Positions 4,597-45,699 of a stretch of DNA of 64,000 nt are shown here, one piece after another (position 1 is the stretch's first letter; every line of letters begins with the position of its first letter). This stretch comes from Vibrio sinaloensis (GTDB taxonomy: Bacteria; Pseudomonadota; Gammaproteobacteria; Enterobacterales; Vibrionaceae), in NCBI RefSeq assembly GCF_023195835.1, contig NZ_CP096200.1, positions 744,001 to 808,000 on the forward strand. The letters are read 5' to 3'. The notes beneath the pieces are model-generated. The model worked only from the letters and a program-made list of their open reading frames with translations, made no database searches and was not told the DNA's origin. The translations under genes were made by a program, and so were the position numbers.

Positions 4597-4687
4597 CCTG
4601 CCTTTTCCTCTGCAAGGCGAGAAATTGAAAAGCGCTCGTATTTTGCTAGAATCTTCCGCGTTAAATTGAATTAGAGAGAACATCCCG

Positions 4688-33276: not shown

Positions 33277-34869
33277 TTAGTTTAAGTTGTTTTTCTTAAA
33301 CGTTTCCGCATAGGCCTTGTCTTCACGCATGATGTGCTGTACCAACCAGTTTTTCAAAAATGCCATCAGCTCATCGCCGATGTTTTCTCCCTTCTCGACC
33401 CGAGCTTGAAATTCCAATACTTGCTCAACCAATTGCTTGTGCTTCGCCACATGCTCTTTAGTGTGCGAGTAACCAATTTGCTCGAATAACACTTCTTCGT
33501 AGGTGAAGTGGTTGGCGGTGTAATCAATCAGCCCCTGAACCACGCGTTTGATTGAGGCTCGCCCGTAATGATGAGTGAGCAAATGGTAGAGCTCGTTCAC
33601 TAGGTGGACTAAGGTTTGGTGTTGGCGATTGATTTCATCTAGGCCAATGTCGAGCTGATCATTCCACTCCATCAATTTGTCGCGTTGTAACTCTTCCACT
33701 TCGATCTGGTGATGGTCTGTGGCAAAGCGATGCAGCAAAGAATCGATTTCGCCTGACAGATTGCGCACCGTGATACTGGCAATTAAGGTTTCTTGAGTGG
33801 CTTTCACGTTGTTGTCCGACTCCGTCGCTATCAGTTGTAAGCACTGTTCAAGACGCTGAGTTTGGCCGAGCTGTTGCTCTGAAGAGGTGGCTATTTGCTG
33901 ACTAAATTGACTGACTTCGTCGATTTGTAAGTGCAGTTCCTTAAAGGTATTTTCTGCGGTCGAGGCAATGTCGAGCGATTTAGTCATGCTCGATTTGTTC
34001 TCTTGCATGGTCTGCAAGACGTCGTCGGTTTTGGCTTGTAAGTTAGCGATTTTGCCGCGAATTTCTTCGGTGGCCTCTTGGGTTCGCACCGAAAGCGAGC
34101 GCACCTCATCGGCGACCACCGCGAACCCGCGCCCTTGCTCGCCAGCTCGAGCGCTCTCTATCGCCGCATTCAATGCCAATAGATTGGTCTGTTCAGCGAT
34201 ACCGCTGATGGTTTCCATGACTTGGTTGATTTGTGCCGTCTCTTCCATCAAAGATTGAAAGTGTTGATTAGAGTTGTCGATATGTTGATTGGCGTTATCT
34301 AACGCTTGCTCAAGCGCCATCATGTCTTTGGTGCCTTGGTCGGCTTTGGCTTTGGCTTGATTGGCTAATGAAGCGGTCGACTCACAGTATTCAGACACAT
34401 TTTGGGTAATGTCTGACAGCTCGCCGATGATCTGTTTGGCGTTGTCCACATCGCGCTTTTGACCAATCGCGCCATTTTTTGATAGCGCCGAGTCTTCTTG
34501 CACTGTGTCTGCGACTTCAAGTAGGCGGGCGGTCGACTTGCGTAGTGCGTGCACGGTACGAGAAATATCTTCACCAATCCGATTAAAGGTGCGCAGTAGT
34601 GGTCCATTTATCTGGTTCTGCGCCGACACGCGCACGGTTAAGTCCCCTTCAGATAAGTGCACAGCGGCTCGTCGAAGTTGGTCGAGTAAACCATTGATAG
34701 AGAAAACTAACAGTACTACAACCGCGTGATAGAGAGCGAGTAAGGCGAGCCACATCCACTGCTGCTGGGAAAGCAACAGGTAAGCGATAGGCAATACCAA
34801 CAGGCTCAGCAGCAGTGCCCACTGCGCTGAGGAAAGGTGACTTAGCTTTGCTAACTGGGTTTTAAACAT
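33277..34869 (-). CDS. Chemoreceptor fused to a bacteriohemerythrin domain
   Basis: 530 residues. Two adjacent N-terminal helices (about 17-58) without a real periplasmic sensor, a HAMP-like segment (about 60-115), the conserved signalling tip [20 protein letters not shown] (about 227-246), and at 395-525 a hemerythrin domain with [40 protein letters not shown] and [10 protein letters not shown], which carry the His and acidic ligands of a di-iron oxygen site. The ligand is therefore sensed inside the cell, most likely oxygen, for aerotaxis. Single gene. Confidence 0.9.
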
Positions 34870-35160: not shown

Positions 35161-37110
35161 GTGAATCAGTCAGTTAATCAAGGCTTTAGCCCAATGGACA
35201 TTAGGTCCAATTCCTCTTCTCTCCGATCGTTTAAGTGGCGTGGTATCGAAGTGCGCCTTGGTTTGGCGCTCGCTTTGTTGTCGCTCACCACCTTGCTGCT
35301 GGCACTGTTTAGCTCGACAACATACGACAAACTGGAGCAAGCGCTGGTCGAGCTGAAAGAGCAAGACATTGCTTCGCTCGAACAAGCCGCGCGCTTAAAC
35401 GACATGGTGCGCTTGGTCATTACTGATTCTGCGCAACTAGTCGATGCCGACTCTAACCTCGAGCGGCAAAAAGCGATGCAACGTATTAATCAAAGCATCG
35501 CCGTGATGAAGCAGGTACTGGCGCACTTCCCTGAATATCACGACTACTTTAAAGACTTGATCGTTCAGGTGAACAACAGCTTGAGTTTGCTTCACCAAAG
35601 TGGCGAGGAGTCACGCGCGTTGAACAAGCAGCTGCGCAACTTGTTGGAAGGGTTCTACCCGCTGTTGCAACAAGTGAGCGAAGAGATTGAGCAACTGCCC
35701 AATCAACAAAAATCGCAGCTGCAATACAGTCAGCTCAATGCACTGCTGTACTACCAGCTGGGATTGGTCGAGAAGCTCTACAATGATGGCAGCTTTAACG
35801 AACTCGACTACACCACTTATCGCTTGGAACAACTGGGGCAAGAGTGGTTTGGACTTTGGCTTGCTAGTGGTTTAGCCGATTCAATGCCTGCGCTGGATGA
35901 AAAGCTGTCGGTGATTTACACCTTAGCGTCGCGCTCCAGTCGGCTGGTAAAATTGAAAAACCAAGCGTTGGAACATCACTATCAGCAAGCCTATTTGCTG
36001 GAGAATAGCCGCGAGTATTTGCACCAACTTTCAGTGCAGATCGAGCGCAACAGTGCCAAGGTCAACCTAGAGATAGACCGTTCAATTGCCAAGGCGCAGC
36101 GCTCACTGACCTCGAATCGAACCTTCTCGTTGCTGCTGTCACTCTTTAGTGTGTTGGCGGCAGCCGGTATTGCCTGGTTTTATGTGAGGAAGAATATTTT
36201 GCAGCGCCTACTCGATTTGCGTGACGACATGTTTGCCATTTCGACTGGTCATCTGGATACACACATTGAGCTCAAAGGGCATGATGAAATCACTCAGATG
36301 GCCAAATCGCTGCAAGTGTTTCAGGCCACCGCGCAGGTGGTGAAGCGCACCAATCAACGTTTAGAAGCGGAAGTCGAGGAGCGCAGAGTGGCGGAAGAAA
36401 AACTGCGAGTGACTCAAGATGAGTTGGTGCAGGCCGGGAAACTGGCCGCTTTAGGCCAGCTGAGTGTCGGCATTACCCACGAAATCAATCAACCTTTGAC
36501 CGCGATTAGCAGTCATGCCCGCAGCGCACAAAAATGGCTTGATCAGCAACGGCCAGAGAAAGCGGTGCACAATCTGAAGAAAATTGAAGTCTTGCTCGGT
36601 AAGGTGGCGGCGTTAACTCGTCATCTCAAAGCGTTTTCGCGCAAAAGTGACGGCAAGGTATCGTCGGTGGCGGTGATGCCTGTGGTGAACGATGCGCTAG
36701 AGCTGTTTGCTAATAGTGGCGCGCCGATTGTGCTCGATTGTGCTCTGACGCCGCAAGAAATCGTCAAGGCCAATCCGATTCGCTTAGAGCAAGTGTTGGT
36801 CAATTTGATCAGTAATGCGGTGGACGCGGTTGCAGATTCTGGTGAGCCGCTGATTGTGGTGTCGGTCAAGCGTGTCGATAGCCAGGTGACGATCGCGGTA
36901 AAAGACAATGGCAAAGGCATTTTGGCCGAAGACTTACCGCATATTTTTGACCCATTTTATACCCGAAAAGAGGTCGGCAAGGGATTAGGGCTTGGCTTGT
37001 CGATCGCGTTTAACATTATCAAAGATTTCGGCGGTTCGATTCGGGTCTCTTCACAGCCACAGCAAGGTAGTGAATTTGTCATAGTTTTGGAACAAGGTGA
37101 AACCTCATGA
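35161..37110 (+). CDS. DctB-like sensor histidine kinase
   Basis: 649 residues, GTG start at 35161 with GGGA upstream; an ATG at 35194 is an alternative. A membrane helix at about 32-50, a long helical periplasmic sensor domain (about 51-318), a second helix (about 322-342), HAMP, a coiled coil, then HisKA with phosphoacceptor His440 in SVGITHEINQPL and an HATPase domain (NLISNAVDAV, DNGKGI, GLGLGLS). The kinase core is of the DctB/PgtB group that partners sigma-54 activators. The sensor is all-helical rather than the PAS-like fold of DctB, so the ligand is likely different. Overlaps the regulator gene by 4 bp. Confidence 0.9.
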   Translation: MNQSVNQGFSPMDIRSNSSSLRSFKWRGIEVRLGLALALLSLTTLLLALFSSTTYDKLEQALVELKEQDIASLEQAARLNDMVRLVITDSAQLVDADSNLERQKAMQRINQSIAVMKQVLAHFPEYHDYFKDLIVQVNNSLSLLHQSGEESRALNKQLRNLLEGFYPLLQQVSEEIEQLPNQQKSQLQYSQLNALLYYQLGLVEKLYNDGSFNELDYTTYRLEQLGQEWFGLWLASGLADSMPALDEKLSVIYTLASRSSRLVKLKNQALEHHYQQAYLLENSREYLHQLSVQIERNSAKVNLEIDRSIAKAQRSLTSNRTFSLLLSLFSVLAAAGIAWFYVRKNILQRLLDLRDDMFAISTGHLDTHIELKGHDEITQMAKSLQVFQATAQVVKRTNQRLEAEVEERRVAEEKLRVTQDELVQAGKLAALGQLSVGITHEINQPLTAISSHARSAQKWLDQQRPEKAVHNLKKIEVLLGKVAALTRHLKAFSRKSDGKVSSVAVMPVVNDALELFANSGAPIVLDCALTPQEIVKANPIRLEQVLVNLISNAVDAVADSGEPLIVVSVKRVDSQVTIAVKDNGKGILAEDLPHIFDPFYTRKEVGKGLGLGLSIAFNIIKDFGGSIRVSSQPQQGSEFVIVLEQGETS

Positions 37111-38447
37111 CGCTAAGAAAACAGATAACACTGATTGACGACGAGATGGACGTGGTAGAAGCCGTCAGTGAAATGCTCGAATTAGAGGGCTTTGATGTGG
37201 TGGGCTTTACCGACCCTAAACTGGCGCTTAAGTCGCTGAACCCAAGCAGCCAGCAAGTGGTGCTGTGTGACGTGCGCATGCCCAAGTTGGATGGCTTAGC
37301 CATGCTCGATGCGATTCAAAGTCGATCGCCGCATTGCCAAGTAGTGTTGATGAGCGGCCACGGCGATATCCCGATGGCGATTGAAGCGATGAAGCTGGGC
37401 GCGTTTGATTTTATTGAGAAGCCACTGCAAAGCGATGAGTTGATCGAAAAACTCAACCTCGCCAATATCCACCTGCAACAGATGGCCGAGCAGGTGGTCA
37501 GTGCCCCTGAGTTACCGATTGAGAATGTGGTGATTGGCGAGTCGGCATCGATGGAGATGGTGCGTACCCAGATCTTGGCGTTGGCGCGTACAGGTGTCGA
37601 CACCATCATCAACGGGGAAACCGGAACCGGCAAGGAAGTGGTGGCGCGCGCGCTTCATCAATATTCTCCGCGTCGAGATAAGCCCTTTGTGGCGATTAAC
37701 TGTGGCGGTATGACCGAAAGCATTATTGAAAGTGAACTGTTTGGTCATGAGGCGGGGTCGTTCACCAGCGCCAATAAAAAACGCATAGGTAAGATTGAGC
37801 AAGCCCATGGCGGCACGCTTTTTCTCGACGAAATCGAAAGTATGCCCATTTCGGTACAGATCAAACTGCTGCGGGTGCTGCAAGAGCGCGTCATAGAGCG
37901 AGTCGGGGGAAATAGCTTGATCCCGGTGGATATTGTGGTGGTTGCAGCAAGTAAAGCCGACTTATCAGCCCTGAGTCAGCGGGGAGAATTCCGTGCCGAT
38001 CTCTTCTATCGTCTCAATATCGCCAGTCTCAACTTGCCGCCGCTACGCCAACGCAAAGAGGACATTCAGGCCCTATTTCGTCACTTTGTGGTTCAAGCGA
38101 GTCAAAAATACAAAACCCGAGCATCGACCCTTTATGCTGAGCAAATCCAGCAACTGTGTCGTCATGATTGGCCGGGCAATGTCCGCGAGCTAAGAAACGT
38201 GGCAGATCGATTTGTGTTGGGTATTGTCGGTGAAGGGTTTGATTTGCAAGCGCCGAGTGTCACTGGTAGCGAGGCGTTCGCGTTTGAGCAGCAGATGGAG
38301 CAGTATGAGCGCAACGTTCTGACCGAGGCCTTGATCGAGATGTCAGGCAATATCAATGAGGTCTCTTTGCGGCTTAACCTGCCACGTAAAACCTTGTATC
38401 GCAAAATGAAGAAGCATCAACTGGATAAGGAGAGCTTCAAGGCCTAG
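37107..38447 (+). CDS. DctD-like sigma-54-dependent response regulator
   Basis: 446 residues: receiver domain with phosphoacceptor Asp55 (CDVRMP), AAA+ sigma-54-interaction domain (Walker A GETGTGKE 170-177, Walker B GGTLFLDEIE) and a C-terminal Fis-type HTH (about 405-440, GNINEVSLRLNLPRKTLYRK). The sigma-54 contact loop reads GSFTSA at 217-222 instead of the usual GAFTGA. It keeps the essential Phe-Thr pair but is altered at two other positions. It should bind the 16-bp repeats found upstream of the two sigma-54 promoters that follow. Confidence 0.92.
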   Translation: MTLRKQITLIDDEMDVVEAVSEMLELEGFDVVGFTDPKLALKSLNPSSQQVVLCDVRMPKLDGLAMLDAIQSRSPHCQVVLMSGHGDIPMAIEAMKLGAFDFIEKPLQSDELIEKLNLANIHLQQMAEQVVSAPELPIENVVIGESASMEMVRTQILALARTGVDTIINGETGTGKEVVARALHQYSPRRDKPFVAINCGGMTESIIESELFGHEAGSFTSANKKRIGKIEQAHGGTLFLDEIESMPISVQIKLLRVLQERVIERVGGNSLIPVDIVVVAASKADLSALSQRGEFRADLFYRLNIASLNLPPLRQRKEDIQALFRHFVVQASQKYKTRASTLYAEQIQQLCRHDWPGNVRELRNVADRFVLGIVGEGFDLQAPSVTGSEAFAFEQQMEQYERNVLTEALIEMSGNINEVSLRLNLPRKTLYRKMKKHQLDKESFKA

Positions 38448-38462
38448 ACACAAATGACCCAA
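38447..38462 (+). promoter_or_regulatory. Enhancer-type repeat, copy 1
   Basis: GACACAAATGACCCAA, starting on the last base of the regulator gene and 58 bp left of the first sigma-54 promoter. It is identical to copy 2 and differs by one base from copy 3, both in front of the second sigma-54 promoter. Confidence 0.75.
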
Positions 38463-38519
38463 GTGAAGCTTGTTTGCGACAGTTTGCTTATATCATGCTG
38501 AAATAAAAGGAAAAATTAA

Positions 38520-38537
38520 TTGGCATAGAGCGTGCTA
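38520..38537 (+). promoter_or_regulatory. Sigma-54 promoter of the glycerophosphodiesterase gene
   Basis: TTGGCATAGAGCGTGCTA has the -24 GG and -12 GC with the obligatory 10-bp spacing. Predicted transcription start near 38547, about 107 bp before the start codon. Confidence 0.78.
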
Positions 38538-38653
38538 CATGTGATGCGACTTTGACGATAACAACAAAAGATTCAACAGCTTGTAAAACGTTTGAAACTT
38601 GCTCAGTCCAGAGTCTTGTATCCACGATAGAACATTTGCTGCAGGAGAAACCA

Positions 38654-39865
38654 ATGAAGCAAATCGTAACCAGTAGTATCGCGCTCTTAATCGGCGTCAG
38701 TTCAATGGCTATGGCAGGCAATGAACCGGCCCAAGTCGGTCCACGTCCACTGTATCTAGTCAGTGACATGGAAAACAGTCCTCTAAAAACTAAGTTGGAA
38801 AGTTGCAGCAATGGTCCTTTCCATCGCAGTGACTTCTCCATCGGCCACCGCGGTGCTGCGATGCAGTTTCCAGAGCACACCAAGGAATCTTATTTAGCCG
38901 CGATTGCGATGGGAGCAGGGGTGCTAGAGTGTGATGTGACCTTTACTAAAGACAAGCAATTGGTTTGTCGCCATTCGCAAAGCGATTTGCACACCACCAC
39001 TGATGTTTTAGCGCACCCAGAACTTGCTAAAAAATGTACGGTTCCATTTAAGCCTGCTAACCCTGCGACCGGCGAAGATGCTCAGGTGGAATGTCGTACC
39101 TCTGACTTTACCTTGGCGGAGTTCAAAACCTTAAAGGGTAAGATGGATGGTGCGAACCCGAAAGCCACCACTGTCGAAGAGTACATGCAAGGCACGCCGG
39201 GCTGGCGCACCGATCTTTACTCGCAAACCGGCACCTTGATGACGCATGCCGAAAGTGCGGCGCTATTTAAACAATATGGCGTGAAAGTGACGCCAGAGCT
39301 CAAATCGGCAGCGGTTGAGATGCCATATCAGGGATTCACTCAGCAAATGTATGCACAGAAGCTCATCGATGAGCTTAAGCAAGCGGGCTTTGCCCCAGAA
39401 CAAGCGTTTGTTCAGTCGTTTAACCTCAATGATGTGAAGTACTGGATTGAAAACGAGCCGAAGTTTGGCAAGCAGGCGGTCTATCTTGATGATCGTATGT
39501 ATGAGCAGCAAGACTTCGTTGCCTCTCTTGAGAACATGAAGGACTTGCAAAAGCAGGGGGTTAACATTATCGCGCCACCGCTTTACGCCCTGATTGAGCT
39601 CGATGACAACAAGCAAATTGTTGCCTCAAACTACGCGAAGCTCGCTAAGCAAGCAGACTTAGACATTATCGCATGGACACTCGAGCGCTCTGGCCCGCTG
39701 GCACAAGGCGGTGGTTGGTACTACCAATCGGTGACCGAGCAGATCAAGCGTGACGGCGATATGATGAAAGTCCTCGATGTACTGGCCAAAGACGTCGGTG
39801 TGTTAGGCGTGTTCAGTGATTGGCCATCGACCGTTACTTACTACGCTAACTGTATGGACATCTAA
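38654..39865 (+). CDS. Secreted glycerophosphodiester phosphodiesterase
   Basis: 403 residues from the ATG at 38654 (GCAGGAGAAACCA before it). Signal peptide [20 protein letters not shown] with cleavage near residue 21, so periplasmic. The GDPD motif [20 protein letters not shown] (about 64-83) carries the catalytic His and the metal-binding Glu, followed by [10 protein letters not shown]. It hydrolyses phospholipid-derived glycerophosphodiesters to glycerol 3-phosphate and an alcohol. The insertion between the motif and the C-terminal barrel makes it longer than E. coli GlpQ (about 358). It has its own sigma-54 promoter and terminator and lies directly upstream of a phosphate-type importer. 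Confidence 0.9.
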
Positions 39866-39896
39866 TACAAACATCGGGTCGTTGACCAAGTTCATA

Positions 39897-39918
39897 AAGG
39901 GCCAACTGGCCCTTTTTT
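39897..39918 (+). terminator. Terminator of the glycerophosphodiesterase gene
   Basis: AAGGGCCAACTGGCCCTTTTTT, strong stem and T run. Confidence 0.85.
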
Positions 39919-39935
39919 GTCGCTGTTTATGATGG

Positions 39936-39985
39936 GACACAAATGACCCAAATGTTTGTTTTTATCAAGGACAGAAATGACCCAA
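39936..39985 (+). promoter_or_regulatory. Enhancer-type repeats, copies 2 and 3
   Basis: GACACAAATGACCCAA at 39936-39951 and GACAGAAATGACCCAA at 39970-39985, starts 34 bp apart (about three helical turns). They end 91 and 57 bp left of the second sigma-54 promoter, a normal distance for an activator of the DctD type. Confidence 0.75.
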
Positions 39986-40042
39986 ATGCTGAGAGGTGTT
40001 TTGTGGATGTTGCTAAGTGTTTGAAAATATAGCCATAAATAG

Positions 40043-40060
40043 TTGGCACAACCTCTGCTA
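40043..40060 (+). promoter_or_regulatory. Sigma-54 promoter of the phnDCEE-like operon
   Basis: TTGGCACAACCTCTGCTA, very close to the consensus TTGGCACG-N4-TTGCT, GG and GC 10 bp apart. Predicted start about 40070. Confidence 0.87.
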
Positions 40061-40105
40061 TAGAGGGAGGGAATATCAACAATAACGTGAATGTAAGGTT
40101 CTAAT

Positions 40106-41146
40106 ATGAAAAACAGTGTAAAAGGATTGTTAATCGCTGGCTCTTTGATGCTGCCAACGCTGGCGATGGCCAATGAGTGTGCTAACCGTGGGGTTCTGGA
40201 TGAGAGATATTGTGACGAAAACCAAGACTTGGTTGCCGATGCGCCTAAAGATGCCTCTGAGTGGATCGACCCAAGCACGCTAGTGTTCACTTACACACCC
40301 GTTGAAGACCCGGCGCTATACAAAGATGCTTTCGCTGATTTTCAGGCGCATCTAAGCAAAATAACCGGTAAAAAGGTCATCTACTACACTGTTCACTCTA
40401 ACTCTGCTCAGGTCGAAGCGATGCGCTCTGGACGTCTGCACGTTGCAGGCTTCTCGACTGGCCCAACTGGTTATGCCGTTAACCTTGCCGGTTATGTACC
40501 CATCGCCGTGAAAGGAGATGAGAACGGCTTTCAAGGCTACAACTTAGTTACGATTGTGCGCAAGGACAGCGGCATCAACGAAATGGCCGACCTGAAAGGC
40601 AAGAGAGTTGCCCATACCTCCGCATCATCCAACTCGGGTAACTTAGCGCCACGTGCTCTATTCCCGGCGCAAGGCTTGGTCCCTGATGAAGACTACAAAG
40701 TGCTTTACTCAGGTAAGCATGACCAATCGATTCTAGGGGTTTACAACGGCGACTACGACGCAGCGCCAGTGGCATCGGATGTTTACGATCGCATGGTGGC
40801 CGCAGGTCGTGTTGATGATTCTGAGCTCAAAATCATCTACCGCAGCCCACGTTTCCCAACGTCTGCATTTGGCTATGCGTACAACCTCAAGCCAGAGTTG
40901 GTGGAAAAAATCAATCAAGCCTTCTTTAGCTACCGTTTCACGCCTGAAATGAGCGCTGCGTTTAAAGGCGCGGATCGCTTCTCGCCAATCACTTATCAAG
41001 AAGATTGGTCAGTCATTCGTGATATCGCTCATGCCACAGGTACTGCTTACACCAAAACAGGGCTTAAAAAGCTGGCAGAAAAAGATGCGGCTAAGCGAGC
41101 CAAGAAAAAAGCGGCCGAGTTAGCCAAACAAGCCACTAACCAGTAA
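40106..41146 (+). CDS. phnD: Phosphate/phosphonate-type ABC substrate-binding protein (PhnD family)
   Basis: 346 residues with a signal peptide ([20 protein letters not shown], cleavage near AMA/NE about residue 22). The PhnD fold is visible from [20 protein letters not shown] (about 56-75), the [20 protein letters not shown] segment that lines the anion pocket, and the [11 protein letters not shown] segment. Family members bind phosphonates, phosphite or phosphate. The last 25 residues are a Lys/Ala-rich tail not typical of the family. No phosphonate-processing enzyme is encoded nearby, so the ligand may be phosphate or an organophosphate ester. Confidence 0.9.
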
Positions 41147-41167
41147 TTCTCCAATCTGACGCCAATA

Positions 41168-41205
41168 GCACGGTGCCCTTGTGTGTAGGGCGCAGGGCAC
41201 CGTGC
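41168..41205 (+). terminator. Intercistronic hairpin between phnD and phnC
   Basis: Perfect 12-bp GC-rich stem GCACGGTGCCCT/AGGGCACCGTGC with a 14-nt loop and no T run. It probably protects the upstream binding-protein mRNA. Confidence 0.65.
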
Positions 41206-41238
41206 ATCCTAAATAGAACAATCACAAGGAACTGTAGT

Positions 41239-42024
41239 ATGGCCGTAGCAAGCTGTGATAGCGCACAATACGACGGAATTAAAATAAGCAATCTGTTTCA
41301 CCAATACGTTGCCGGAAAGCCTATTCTCAAAGGGATCGACATCGACATCGACCAGCCAGGGATCATCGCTATTATCGGCCCATCAGGTACCGGAAAAAGT
41401 ACCCTGCTGCGCTGTATCAACCGCCTCAATGATCCCACCAGTGGTGAAATCCTGTTTCAGGGCCAAGACCTGACTAAACTGCAAGGTCAAGCGCTGCGCA
41501 ACCAGCGTCGCCATATCGGCATGGTCTTTCAAGAGTACAACTTGGTCGAGCGTTTGACGGTGATTGAGAACGTGTTGTCTGGTCGTTTGGGCTATATGTC
41601 GTCGTGGAATGCTTGGCGCCGCAACTACTCGCAGCAAGATTTGCGCAAAGCGTTTGAGTTGTTGGAGTTTGTTGGATTACAAGATTTTGCCAATCAGCGT
41701 GCCGATAGCCTGTCGGGCGGTCAGCGTCAACGAGTCGGAATCGCCCGTGCGGTGATGCAAGACCCATACATTTTGTTGGCTGATGAGCCGACTTCGTCAC
41801 TCGATCCTAAGACAGCCGTTGAGATCATGGAGCTGATGGAAACCTTCGCCAAAGAGAAGCAAATCCCGGTACTGGTTAATATTCACGATGTGAACCTAGC
41901 CAAGCGTTTTGCTAAGCGCATTATCGGTATGTGCAATGGCACGGTGCACTATGACGGCAGCCCAGAGGGTATTAGCGAGCAAGATCTGAAAATCATCTAC
42001 GGAGGTGAGTCATGGCTGGATTAA
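41239..42024 (+). CDS. phnC: PhnC-type ABC importer ATPase
   Basis: 261 residues from [10 protein letters not shown] (ATG at 41239 after AAGGAACTG; the longer frame from 41173 runs through the hairpin). Walker [10 protein letters not shown] (about 50-58), signature [10 protein letters not shown], Walker [13 protein letters not shown] and the switch His in NIHDVNLA are intact. It energises the two PhnE-like permeases; it overlaps the first by 13 bp. Confidence 0.9.
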
Positions 42025-42806
42025 CCTCGTCGACCCCTCAAGTGGAAAACCCATTTAAAGCCTCTTGGTTAAGCCGTCTTGGTTTGGTCGCGGTTGTTGG
42101 CTACCTGTTTTACAGTTTCTCCACACTCAATCTCACGCTTGACCGATTGATGATAGGCTTTGGAGAGAGTGAGCGCTTGCTTTCTCGTATGTTTCCACCT
42201 GATTTTTCACGTTCAAGCCTGCTGTTGAGCGGGCTGGCTGAGAGCTTACAAATTGCGATCATTTCAAGCTTCTTTGGCATAGTGATATCGCTGTTTCTCG
42301 GCTTGCTGGCAGCGCGCAATATGATGCCATCTATCGTATCGACGCCTGTACGTGGCTTCATTGCGCTATGCCGCTCCTTCCATCCGGTGATCATTGCCAT
42401 CCTGTTCGTCAAGGCGGTGGGGTTTGGTGCGTTAGCTGGGATTTTGACCTTAGTGTTCGCTTCGATTGGTTTTATCGCCAAGCTGTTTGCGGAAGCGATC
42501 GAAGAGATCTCGTTCAAGCAAGTAGAAGCGATCCGCGCCACTGGAGCAAACTTCATCAGTGTGATTCTGTTTGCAGTGATGCCGCAGGTGTTTACTCGCT
42601 TTATCGGCTTTGCCAGCTACCAGCTAGATTCCAATCTGCGTAACTCCACTATGGTCGGCATTGTCGGTGCGGGAGGTCTCGGCGGGACCTTGTTCTCGGC
42701 TTTCCAGCGCTTCGATTATGACTTTGTCGCGGCCATTCTAATCACCATTATCGCGCTGATTTTGGTGGGTGAATTCTTGTCTAATGTAGTAAGGAGAATT
42801 TTCTAA
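42012..42806 (+). CDS. phnE: PhnE-type permease, first copy
   Basis: 264 residues, about six membrane helices and a permease EAA loop ([20 protein letters not shown]). Starts inside the end of phnC. Its partner is encoded next with a TAATG-type 1-bp overlap, suggesting a heterodimeric channel. Confidence 0.9.
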
Positions 42807-43609
42807 TGACCACCGCTTCGATTGATAGAGAATGGCAACGCTTTACGTTCAATGAACGGCTGGCAAGATTTGCCGCCTACTTCTGTTTTGTGGCTGCGAT
42901 TGTTTGGTCTTGGCAGACCGTGGAGATCATCCCAGAGTTCCTTTACGACGCGCCAGCGCAGTTTGCGGATATGTTTAGTCGTATGGTGCCACTTGATTAC
43001 GGATTCTATCCAGAGACCATTCACGATGCTTTGATAGAGACGTTGCACATCGCCACATTGGGCACACTGTTCACCTTGGTGCTTGCGATCCCTTTGGCGC
43101 TGCTCAACGCGCCCAATATCACCCCAAGTAAAACGCTCAACTGGATCGCGCAATTCTTCTTGGTCTCTTCGCGCTCAGTCAACTCGTTAGTGTGGGCACT
43201 GCTGTTTATCGCGCTGTTTGGCCCCGGCGTTTTGGCGGGAATCATGGCCATTGCGGTGCGTAGTGTCGGTTTTGTCGGTAAGTTGTTGGCAGAGGCGATT
43301 GCCGAGGTCAACATGGGGACCATTGAGGCGTTAAAGGCCACGGGTGCCTCATGGATGAGTATCCTGGTTAAAGGCTACTGGCCACAGGTGATGCCAGCGT
43401 TTTATTCGATTGTACTGTTCCGCTGGGATATCAATGTTCGTGAATCGGCGGTGCTGGGTTTGGTGGGTGCTGGCGGGATTGGGGTGGTCCTCAATGATGC
43501 TCAAAACCTGTTTGAGTGGCAAAAAGTCTCTATGGTGCTATTGAGCATATTTGCCGTGGTTGTATTGGCAGAAGCGCTGGTGGTACATGTACGCAAAAAG
43601 TTGATTTAA
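42806..43609 (+). CDS. phnE2: PhnE-type permease, second copy
   Basis: 267 residues, same fold as the preceding gene and its EAA loop is EAIAEVNMGTIEALKATGAS. Two distinct PhnE genes in a row occur in several phosphonate or phosphite importers. Last gene of the operon; a terminator follows at 43661. Confidence 0.9.
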   Translation: MTTASIDREWQRFTFNERLARFAAYFCFVAAIVWSWQTVEIIPEFLYDAPAQFADMFSRMVPLDYGFYPETIHDALIETLHIATLGTLFTLVLAIPLALLNAPNITPSKTLNWIAQFFLVSSRSVNSLVWALLFIALFGPGVLAGIMAIAVRSVGFVGKLLAEAIAEVNMGTIEALKATGASWMSILVKGYWPQVMPAFYSIVLFRWDINVRESAVLGLVGAGGIGVVLNDAQNLFEWQKVSMVLLSIFAVVVLAEALVVHVRKKLI

Positions 43610-43981: not shown

Positions 43982-44764
43982 TTAGCTCTGTTTGAGCGCG
44001 AGCAGTGCATGGGTAAATTCGGCAAAGCCAAAGCCTCCTGGCTGGCTCATCACCAAATTTGGCTTATGGTTGAGTTGCTGCCAATAGTGCTCGATGTTTT
44101 TCACCCCTACGCTCATTGGCAGGGTTTCAAACATCTGCTGATCATTGAGCGAGTCACCGACATAGCAGCATTTACTGATAATCTCGCTATCGCTCAGCCC
44201 TTGTTGACGCAGGTAGGCGAAGGCGCTGTTGCGCTTGGAGTGGTCGCCATACCACGCATTGATGTGGATCGAACTGGCGGTCGCATGGGCGCCCATCGCA
44301 TGGATACGCGCAACAATTTGCTGGACGGTTTGGCTATCAACCGGAGAACGGTTTTGACCAATATCGATCGCCACCTCACATAGGCGGTAGGCTTGGTCGA
44401 GCGTCAGGTTTATCTCGCGATAGTCGTGTAGGATCTGTTCAATTTGCTGTTTGAGGTGCGCCTGTTGGCGACGCATAGTGTCGATATCGACTGAGGAGGA
44501 GAGGGTAATGCCGGGTTCACTTTTCTCCAAGCAAAATGCGCCATTTTCGCCGAGCACTGCGTCAACAGGCCAAAGCTGAGCAATATGATCGCACCAGCCC
44601 GCGCAAGCACCTGTAACGGCCACCACCTTGATGCCCTGTTGCTGCAAGCTATTAAGGGCGAGTAACGTTTCTGCGGGGAGTTTTCCGCGCCAAGTTAGGG
44701 TGTCGTCCACATCGGTGAGTACCCACTCAATCTTATTCCATTCAGGTGTCAGCACGTTTGTCAT
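43982..44764 (-). CDS. HAD-IIB phosphatase (mannosyl-3-phosphoglycerate phosphatase-like)
   Basis: 260 residues. Motif I DVDDTL (Asp18 nucleophile, Asp20 acid/base), motif II VAVTGACAG, motif III with KRNSAFAYL, motif IV VGDSLNDQQMF. The C2-type cap and the length fit the IIB group including YedP/MpgP. Vibrios are not generally known to make mannosylglycerate, so the natural substrate remains open; a sugar phosphate or phosphoglycerate is likely. Convergent-to-divergent layout with the RNA methyltransferase gene to the right. Confidence 0.82.
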   Translation of the reverse strand: MTNVLTPEWNKIEWVLTDVDDTLTWRGKLPAETLLALNSLQQQGIKVVAVTGACAGWCDHIAQLWPVDAVLGENGAFCLEKSEPGITLSSSVDIDTMRRQQAHLKQQIEQILHDYREINLTLDQAYRLCEVAIDIGQNRSPVDSQTVQQIVARIHAMGAHATASSIHINAWYGDHSKRNSAFAYLRQQGLSDSEIISKCCYVGDSLNDQQMFETLPMSVGVKNIEHYWQQLNHKPNLVMSQPGGFGFAEFTHALLALKQS

Positions 44765-44961
44765 CCGTTTTATCTCTTTGACTCAATAGTTTACCTGCTC
44801 AATGTAGATAATACCGTGATGGCGTAGTAAGTTGCTCGAATGCGCATAGTGGCGGCGCTTTGCTGGTGCTCGTGACCTTGTTCAGCCCTCTTTTGCTTCG
44901 CCATGCTTTGCTCTATAATTGGCGCGCTTTTATCGCCAGCCCTCTCTACCTTGGACATATT

Positions 44962-45699
44962 ATGATTTCGAAAAACCAGCTCAAACTCCTGCGTGCTTTA
45001 GGCCAAAAGAAACAGCGCAAAGCGCATGGGCTTTTTTTGGTTCAGGGTGAAAAGAATGTGCTAGAGCTGGTTCAGTCTGAGTTGGTGGTGAAAAATCTGT
45101 TCGCAACGTCAGAGTTTCTTGCTCAGCATGCGAGTGCGCTTGGCGATGTTGAATGCGTTGCAGCGACGCTCGAAGAGCTGACCAAAGCGAGCACTTTAGT
45201 CAGCAATAACGCGGCGATTGCGGTGGTGGAGATTCCAAACATTACAGTACCGAGCGCGGAAGGCTTGATGATCGCCCTCGACGGGGTGTCTGATCCTGGA
45301 AACCTAGGCACCATTATCCGCCTTGCTGATTGGTACGGTATTAAGCACATTGTCGCCAGCCAAGACTGTGCGGATCCTTATAATCCGAAAACCATCAGTG
45401 CCACTATGGGCAGCTTTGCTCGAGTGACGGTCAGTCAGATCGATTTGCCCGCTTATCTTTGCTCTGCCAACTTGCCGGTTTATGGTGCGTTTCTGGAAGG
45501 TGAGAGCGTACATAATACCGAATTTTCCGCGCAAGGAATCTTGTTGATGGGCAGTGAATCCCACGGTATTCGTCCTGAGGCAGGACAATACGTCACCAAC
45601 AAAATTACCATTCCAGCCTTTGGTGGTGCAGAGTCGCTCAATGTTGCTATGGCGACGGGCATCATCCTCGACAATATGCGTCGTCAGCACGGCCACTAA
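44962..45699 (+). CDS. SpoU/TrmH-family RNA 2'-O-methyltransferase
   Basis: 245 residues from MISKNQLKLLRALGQKKQRK (ATG at 44962; the upstream extension to 44860 is not conserved). An N-terminal L30e-like substrate-binding domain (1-95) precedes the knotted SPOUT domain with motif 1 ALDGVSDPGNLGTIIRLADW, motif 2 ILLMGSESHGI and motif 3 IPAFGGAESLNVAMATGI, which form the SAM knot. It methylates ribose in rRNA or tRNA; the specific nucleotide cannot be told from sequence. Confidence 0.9.
   Translation: MISKNQLKLLRALGQKKQRKAHGLFLVQGEKNVLELVQSELVVKNLFATSEFLAQHASALGDVECVAATLEELTKASTLVSNNAAIAVVEIPNITVPSAEGLMIALDGVSDPGNLGTIIRLADWYGIKHIVASQDCADPYNPKTISATMGSFARVTVSQIDLPAYLCSANLPVYGAFLEGESVHNTEFSAQGILLMGSESHGIRPEAGQYVTNKITIPAFGGAESLNVAMATGIILDNMRRQHGH

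Follow-up and report, generated by a model that had tools for sequence, protein, structure and literature searches.

Is the two-component pair encoded upstream of a phosphodiesterase gene and an ABC importer operon the local regulator of both, and which substrate would such a circuit serve? We asked this of positions 35161 to 43609 of the window, the 64,000-nucleotide stretch of DNA analyzed here, for which the initial annotation had called a kinase, a sigma-54 regulator, a glycerophosphodiester phosphodiesterase (GDPD), a phosphonate-family binding protein, PhnC and two PhnE proteins. All of these gene calls held on comparison with Pfam and NCBIfam. We consider it probable that this block encodes a sigma-54 circuit, self-contained and induced by its substrate, for the uptake of glycerol phosphates. 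The gene content, repeats, promoters, constraint, co-loss with the regulator and pocket identity were read from sequence; the sensor fold comes from a structural model.

The sensor histidine kinase (35161..37110, + strand, 649 aa, GTG start) has an all-helical sensor at approximately residues 54-322, followed by HAMP, HisKA and HATPase domains; HAMP and HATPase were found by Pfam/NCBIfam, and the HisKA match fell just under the Pfam cut-off (24.4 of 26.9 bits). Its gene overlaps by 4 bases that of a sigma-54-type response regulator (37107..38447, + strand, 446 aa) with the order REC-Sigma54_activat-HTH_8, that is, a receiver (PF00072), an AAA+ domain (PF00158, 218.6 bits against a cut-off of 20.2) and a C-terminal Fis-type helix-turn-helix (PF02954). 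Receiver residues D55 and K105 are kept in 35 of 35 syntenic loci from Vibrio, Photobacterium, Moritella and Alginatibacterium, this set being the window and 37 others (L009-L045) minus three without the regulator (L012, L017 and L035). The sigma-54 contact loop reads GSFTSA in the window where GAFTGA would stand, and G-[SA]-F-T-[SG]-A throughout the set (GSFTSA in 31, GSFTGA in 2 and GAFTSA in 2); exact GAFTGA occurs in none of the 35 regulators, and the central F-T is always kept. The pair had been labelled DctB/DctD-like; among named NCBIfam models the best match was PgtB in the case of the kinase and NtrC in that of the regulator, none reaching its cut-off. The kinase reached 202.2 of the 1000 bits set for the PgtB equivalog (NF047794), and the regulator 305 of the 650 bits set for the PgtA equivalog (NF047793). 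A gene with a sigma-54 DNA-binding domain (rpoN) is present in the genome.

The phosphodiesterase (GDPD family, PF03009; 38654..39865, + strand, 403 aa) has an N-terminus that by eye is signal-peptide-like, and its HRG and ECDVTxTxD motifs are found in 35/35 loci. Downstream on the same strand are genes for a GpxB-like (PhnD family) periplasmic binding protein (40106..41146, 346 aa; PF12974, and TIGR01098 above cut-off), an ABC transporter ATPase of the PhnC family (41239..42024; TIGR02315 above cut-off) and two permeases of the PhnE family (42012..42806 and 42806..43609; both above the TIGR01097 cut-off).

These Pfam and NCBIfam names say phosphonate, and the binding protein sits in a broad phosphate/phosphite/phosphonate subfamily, as would suit a version of the circuit in which the pump is a phosphonate importer and the substrate a phosphonate or some other phosphate ester. 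We think this version unlikely. The product of a periplasmic GDPD is glycerol phosphate, not phosphonate, and the binding protein scores 134.6 of the 261.1 bits set for the PhnD equivalog (TIGR03431). By far its best relative among PDB sequences is GpxB (9lf9, E 3.6e-82), followed by PtxB (1.1e-27), with PhnD (3p7i) at 1.8e-15. GpxB is a glycerol-1/3-phosphate binder whose pocket residues and affinities are given in the available text of its published description (PMC12718374). Eight of the nine pocket residues (9lf9/9lfb) are identical in the binding protein in 35/35 loci, the ninth being a change of T247 to serine, a position for which that text reports mutation to alanine only. All 35 binding proteins have Arg and Ser at the positions of GpxB Arg223 and Thr247, where, in the same text, PhnD has Glu177 and Asp205. 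Overall identity to Marinobacter GpxB is only 47%. On the 9lf9 match and the pocket, the importer is more plausibly of the GpxB type than a PhnDCEE system, with glycerol phosphate rather than phosphonate as its likely substrate; the earlier term organophosphate fits.

Candidate -24/-12 promoters were found where the initial annotation had placed them, on the + strand at 38520..38536 for the GDPD unit (TTGGCATAGAGCGTGCT) and at 40043..40059 for the transporter unit (TTGGCACAACCTCTGCT), with predicted transcription starts near 38547 and 40070. Single consensus matches would not stand out, as the loose -24/-12 pattern has 78 matches in the window against 77.7 expected; both promoters are credible because they are conserved and lie at a near-fixed distance to the repeats. 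The latter had been described as a 16-mer with one copy before the GDPD-unit promoter and two copies, spaced 34 bp apart, ahead of the transporter promoter. That layout stands, with the correction that the third copy is not identical: GACACAAATGACCCAA is exact at 38447 and 39936, and the copy at 39970 is GACAGAAATGACCCAA, with one mismatch. At up to three mismatches the window contains four matches, compared with 0.59 in shuffles of it. The remark that there was no other copy extends to the whole genome, in which GACASAAATGACCCAA occurs in these three places only. Genome-wide matches at up to two mismatches (8) are about as many as in a backwards-read control (7), so that only close copies are meaningful; none of 7 further loose genomic sites has a promoter of at least 9/12 at a conserved distance. 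We assigned the copies as candidate enhancers on the + strand: AGACACAAATGACCCAA at 38446..38462 for the GDPD unit, overlapping the regulator stop codon, and, for the transporter unit, GGACACAAATGACCCAA at 39935..39951 as the distal site and GGACAGAAATGACCCAA at 39969..39985 as the proximal site, 34 bp from the distal one.

All 35 syntenic loci keep a single site ahead of the GDPD gene and a pair ahead of the transporter, at a near-fixed distance to GG-N10-GC, and we therefore do not attribute the repeats to chance. The site matrix was derived from these same 35 loci and applied to the + strand alone, and the base-level reading of the site draws on 105 orthologous sites, 48 of them distinct. 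Mean identity is 85% in the sites and 39% in the spacer (465 pairs from 31 of the 35 loci), figures that by rule omit three loci with 33-bp spacing and also omit L021, where two identical sites were mislocated. Among the best 80 of 226 GDPD relatives, 34 carry the block and 46 are without it within the fetched stretch, some stretches being short. The best 27 listed among the relatives (L009-L035) are from Vibrio, or Vibrionales in the case of L024; the organism thus groups with Vibrio, and the enteric framing given to it earlier should be dropped.

Within the genus (227 genomes), the site pair is present in 60/60 genomes with the regulator and in 1/167 without it (G209), the latter chance-like; the backwards-read control gave no such pair. 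The spacing is 34 bp in 56 of the 60 and 33 bp in the other four, which have a weaker second site. The regulator (at least 69% identity) and the binding protein (at least 86%) occur together in all 60, and the binding protein was found without the regulator in one genome, which is 79% complete. Family-wide, the regulator at E <= 1e-150 is present in 66/325 genomes and 4/13 genera. The 35 loci and 60 genomes are not independent trials, because the loci are related. In L012 and L017, which keep the GDPD gene and lack the regulator, the enhancer and the -24/-12 element are eroded inside conserved flanks. As side observations, one regulator-free genome (G138) has a single intact site beside a GDPD remnant, and in a genome from another genus of the family (G609) the regulator match is partial (residues 130-445), and the 5 kb fetched contain one site.

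These distributions bear on which protein binds the repeats. The genome contains other sigma-54 activators, for example a 48% identical paralog of the regulator with a canonical GAFTGA, and one of these could bind the repeats while the adjacent pair controls something else. We judge this very improbable. Of the 227 genomes, 166 have a match to the regulator at E <= 1e-120 but only 60 have one at 69% identity or more, and it is with these 60 that the paired sites go; in L012 and L017, where the local regulator is absent, the sites have decayed. We give almost no credence to the idea that the genes belong to the Pho regulon, with PhoB binding the repeats as diverged Pho boxes. In its favor are a phosphorus-related function and two GAC-type words in the repeat, but no Pho box stands out upstream of either unit: the best matches in the window to the Pho-box consensus, 12/18 and 10/18, are about at shuffle level (means 10.6 and 10.9), and the sites go along with the local sigma-54-type regulator in 60/60 genomes and keep a near-fixed distance to -24/-12. 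The closed circuit predicted in the initial annotation, in which the repeats act as enhancers of two -24/-12 promoters under the local regulator, is strongly supported, at the level of sequence, by conservation, co-occurrence and co-loss.

In this closed regulon the kinase would respond in the periplasm to glycerol phosphate, or to the binding protein carrying it, and would phosphorylate the regulator. The regulator would bind the dyad GGACA-N4-TGACC, singly before the GDPD gene and as the 34-bp pair before the transporter operon, and loop to RNA polymerase-sigma-54, opening both promoters. The GDPD, probably periplasmic, would cut glycerophosphodiesters there, and the GpxB-type ABC importer would take up glycerol-3-phosphate and perhaps glycerol-1-phosphate, with glycerol phosphate as the presumed inducer and a possible phosphorus or carbon source. 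The model of the kinase sensor (m5daace3d90f6) resembles TorS/HBM folds by Foldseek, and TorS is a kinase that operates together with a binding protein. We suggest, tentatively and with more doubt than belief, that the GpxB-type binding protein, loaded with GDPD-made glycerol phosphate, docks on this TorS-like sensor, making a positive-feedback three-part sigma-54 switch that works through the GSFTSA activator and a lipid-debris sensor for marine Vibrionaceae and relatives. A variant nested within the preferred circuit, to which we give nearly even weight, is that the helical domain binds glycerol phosphate directly, as McpS does malate, and that the binding protein serves transport only. For the sensor model, chemoreceptor domains that bind ligand directly are matches about as good as TorS; against the variant, TorS-TorT heads the Foldseek list, at a modest E-value of 8.5e-4, and the related PgtC-PgtB-PgtA and AioX-AioS-AioR systems sense via a periplasmic partner.

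The circuit itself was not found in the literature searched; several systems resemble it in part. In Salmonella, organophosphate uptake is driven independently of PhoB by the regulator PgtA, for which contact with sigma-54 is predicted; this makes sigma-54 control less of a departure than first claimed. PgtABC-PgtP likewise couples a sensor kinase and such a regulator to an organophosphate uptake gene; its target is the PgtP antiporter, whereas here it is an ABC importer plus phosphodiesterase, predicted to serve glycerol phosphate. AioR is of the sigma-54 type. The TorT partner belongs to another binding-protein family, and TorT-TorS differs further in that of three loci scanned here none exceeded the Pfam cut-off for the TorS sensor (L043 scored 19.8 of 27 bits, and the other two gave no match). 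AioX-AioS-AioR and ArrX, an AioX orthologue, also join a periplasmic sensor protein to a kinase and regulator, and ArrX matches the binding protein significantly in sequence (E 1.2e-12); there, however, the sensor is a dedicated binding protein, and here it would be that of the ABC importer. Enterobacterial ugp shares the uptake of glycerol-3-phosphate, there for phosphorus and, in Salmonella, under PhoB, whereas no Pho box stands out at the units described here; UgpB is without sequence homology to GpxB (PMC12718374).

The GpxB transporters of Phaeobacter and Marinobacter share the binding-protein family, eight of the nine pocket residues and an ABC importer with ATPase and permeases. In the available text of the 2025 report they are widely distributed and induced by glycerol phosphates in Phaeobacter; the word "operon" is absent from its PNAS main text, and the text available describes no regulator (PMC12718374). 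Eleven GpxB-type loci from outside this set (L137-L147), of which 7 are at least 70% identical to Marinobacter GpxB, differ from ours: within 350 bp upstream they lack the repeat, and no -24/-12 match there exceeds 7/12. In two of the eleven (L144 and L145), which belong to two other families within the class, a GDPD gene, 59-60% identical, adjoins the operon. The present locus supplies a specific, testable regulator for the Vibrio branch of these transporters, with predicted sites read to the base. It suggests that marine glycerophosphodiester scavenging can be set by substrate via sigma-54 and not by phosphate starvation via PhoB, which bears on the recycling of lipid phosphorus.

We also note two minor non-coding elements. 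A terminator-like hairpin with a T run, read from sequence, lies between the GDPD gene and the transporter enhancers (39897..39918, + strand); a general terminator scan did not list it, and 24/35 loci have a similar hairpin under a strict rule. Tentatively, an IHF-site-like element (40014..40026, - strand) lies between enhancer and promoter on the transporter side. Scored against an IHF consensus, and with the transporter region of L021 cut too long because its two identical sites were located at one place, 30/35 loci reach 8 or 9 of 9, compared with 23% of shuffles, and 27 of these 30 share one position.

The block comprises genes for a kinase (35161-37110), a sigma-54-type response regulator (37107-38447) and a GDPD-family phosphodiesterase (38654-39865), followed by a binding protein, an ATPase and two permeases (40106-43609). 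An rpoN gene was found in the same genome (4.17 Mb, two contigs). Both -24/-12 promoters proposed in the initial annotation, at 38520 and 40043, were recovered. The repeat that it described as identical in three places, GACACAAATGACCCAA, is exact at 38447 and 39936, but the copy at 39970 has one mismatch. The genome-wide 16-mer search that it had suggested located GACASAAATGACCCAA only three times in the genome, each time within the block. Because loose -24/-12 matches are as frequent in the window as expected (78 observed versus 77.7), a single match means little, and conservation is the test.

Querying the contigs of named genomes with the phosphodiesterase identified 226 relatives. We retained the best 80, and in 34 of them the kinase, regulator, phosphodiesterase and binding protein genes occur in the same order. 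Together with the window this gave 35 loci from Vibrio, Photobacterium, Moritella and Alginatibacterium, many of which are close kin and hence non-independent. For a scan of the + strand we used a matrix derived from 65 seed sites in these same loci. It detected a total of 105 sites: in every locus, one precedes the phosphodiesterase gene and two precede the binding-protein gene. On the transporter side, the distal site starts 110 bp from the promoter GG in all 35 loci, and the spacing of the paired sites is 34 bp in 32 loci and 33 bp in three (L043-L045), placing the proximal site 76 bp and 77 bp from the GG, respectively. The corresponding distance on the phosphodiesterase side is 76 bp (13 loci), 78 bp (17), 79 bp (2) or 66 bp (3). 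Pairwise identity between loci averages 85% within the sites, compared with 39% in the 17-bp spacer (465 pairs, 31 loci). The arrangement of repeats and promoters is therefore, from its conservation, more than chance. The site consensus is RGACANNWWTGACYCAW, with A at the Y position in three sites and C at the last W in two; TGAC-N-CA is invariant, as is GACA save for one exception. The sites form an imperfect dyad, GGACA-N4-TGACC, which would suit a DNA-binding domain of the Fis type.

A second comparison, independent of synteny, covered 227 genomes of the genus. The regulator (at least 69% identity) is encoded in 60 of them, and the binding protein (at least 86%) in the same 60 and in one further genome that is 79% complete. 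Two sites 34 bp apart, allowing up to two mismatches, were found in 57 genomes: 56 of the 60 that bear the regulator, plus G209, whose pair has two mismatches and in which a stricter rule recovered no site. The remaining four regulator-bearing genomes have the pair at 33 bp, and the 34-bp pattern read backwards as a control was found in none of the 227. The GACASAAATGACCCAA set occurs at 29 places in 22 genomes, with block genes at all 29 loci and the regulator present in 21 of the 22.

The exception, G138, is a deletion scar: its locus (L100, 3 kb fetched) retains a 3' phosphodiesterase remnant and one intact site, and within these 3 kb the kinase, the regulator and the transporter are absent, along with most of the phosphodiesterase gene. 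Remnant and site lie between the chemoreceptor gene found ahead of the block in the window and a gene matching, by eye, the ORF at 44860-45699. Two other loci, L017 and L012, keep the phosphodiesterase and have no kinase, regulator or binding-protein gene within the 15 kb fetched. Aligned with their relatives, they conserve flanking sequence, for instance ahead of the start codon, but the enhancer lacks otherwise invariant bases and the promoter has decayed (the -24 GG is lost in L012, and GGCA is changed to GGTA in L017). In G216 (L108) the phosphodiesterase gene at this location is reduced to a fragment and its -24 reads TTGGTGC, whereas the transporter-side site pair and promoter are intact. 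Thus sites and promoters are retained where their regulator and target are retained.

Within the window's genome, the predicted regulon is closed, consisting of just the block's own two units. GACANNNNTGACYCAW occurs at ten places (six for the backwards control), and the three in the block have promoters matching 9-10 of 12 positions at the conserved distances. At those distances the other seven places lack any promoter of at least 9 of 12, the nearest case being L005, with 7 of 12 at offset 94. Upstream of the kinase gene the only match has three mismatches and lies at 34222, inside a chemoreceptor gene, and therefore the kinase/regulator pair is not expected to be under the same control. That divergent neighbor (33277-34869) encodes a signalling protein of the chemoreceptor type that contains a hemerythrin domain; counterparts at least 73% identical adjoin four of the 34 blocks fetched (L009, L010, L011 and L013) and are also present in L017 and L100.

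The regulator's sigma-54 contact loop, for which GAFTGA is the usual sequence, reads GSFTSA, whereas a paralog encoded elsewhere in the genome (48% identical) has GAFTGA. Among the 35 orthologs we found GSFTSA in 31, GSFTGA in two and GAFTSA in two, all conforming to G-[SA]-F-T-[SG]-A. Given the strong conservation of the promoters, the regulator has probably not lost its contact with sigma-54.

As to the substrate, the best solved relative of the binding protein by sequence is Marinobacter GpxB (9lf9/9lfb; E 3.6e-82), whose structures were solved with glycerol-1- and glycerol-3-phosphate (PMC12718374). That study reports nine ligand-holding residues in GpxB; all 35 loci share eight of them and have Ser in place of Thr247. 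Glu177 and Asp205, described as marking phosphonate-binding PhnD (PMC12718374), are replaced in the window's protein just as in GpxB. A phosphodiesterase gene 59-60% identical to the window's adjoins a GpxB-type operon in 2 of 11 loci fetched from elsewhere (L144 and L145), so a phosphodiesterase and a glycerol-phosphate importer would form a coherent pathway. We consider the in-silico case for glycerol phosphate good. The 350 bp upstream of the 11 GpxB-type loci (L137-L147) contain no repeat, and their -24/-12 matches reach 7 of 12 at most; among the loci sampled, control by sigma-54 would thus be limited to the window's branch. A second type of binding protein, 47-51% identical to the window's, is encoded in 42 of the 227 genus genomes, 15 of which also have the window type. 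The three examples examined (L137-L139) share 72-78% identity with Marinobacter GpxB, and their loci do not have the sigma-54 arrangement.

We consider the in-silico case for the predicted sigma-54 circuit unusually strong. Among the papers listed by our literature searches none deals with it, and the terms glycerophosph, phosphonate and glycerol-3 are all absent from the main text of a sigma-54 regulon survey published in 2025 (PMC12316311). The initial annotation regarded such control as a departure from PhoB regulation in enterics. The departure is smaller than that, because control of this kind is already known: Salmonella is reported to use some organophosphates independently of PhoB (PMC10715179), and part of its regulator PgtA is predicted to touch sigma-54 (PMC11077982). 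The word enterics is also unfitting, because the 27 top-ranking named relatives all belong to Vibrio or Vibrionales. Assignment of the kinase and regulator as PgtB and PgtA was ruled out by NCBIfam cut-offs.

In Photobacterium profundum ATCC BAA-1252 (L038:3537-5413), tblastn aligns the kinase in two pieces that join at 4685, which may reflect a frameshift. Downstream of the block, a HAD-IIB phosphatase (43982-44764), which weakly matches phosphoglycolate and mannosyl-3-phosphoglycerate phosphatases, has the same downstream position in 17 of the 34 blocks fetched.
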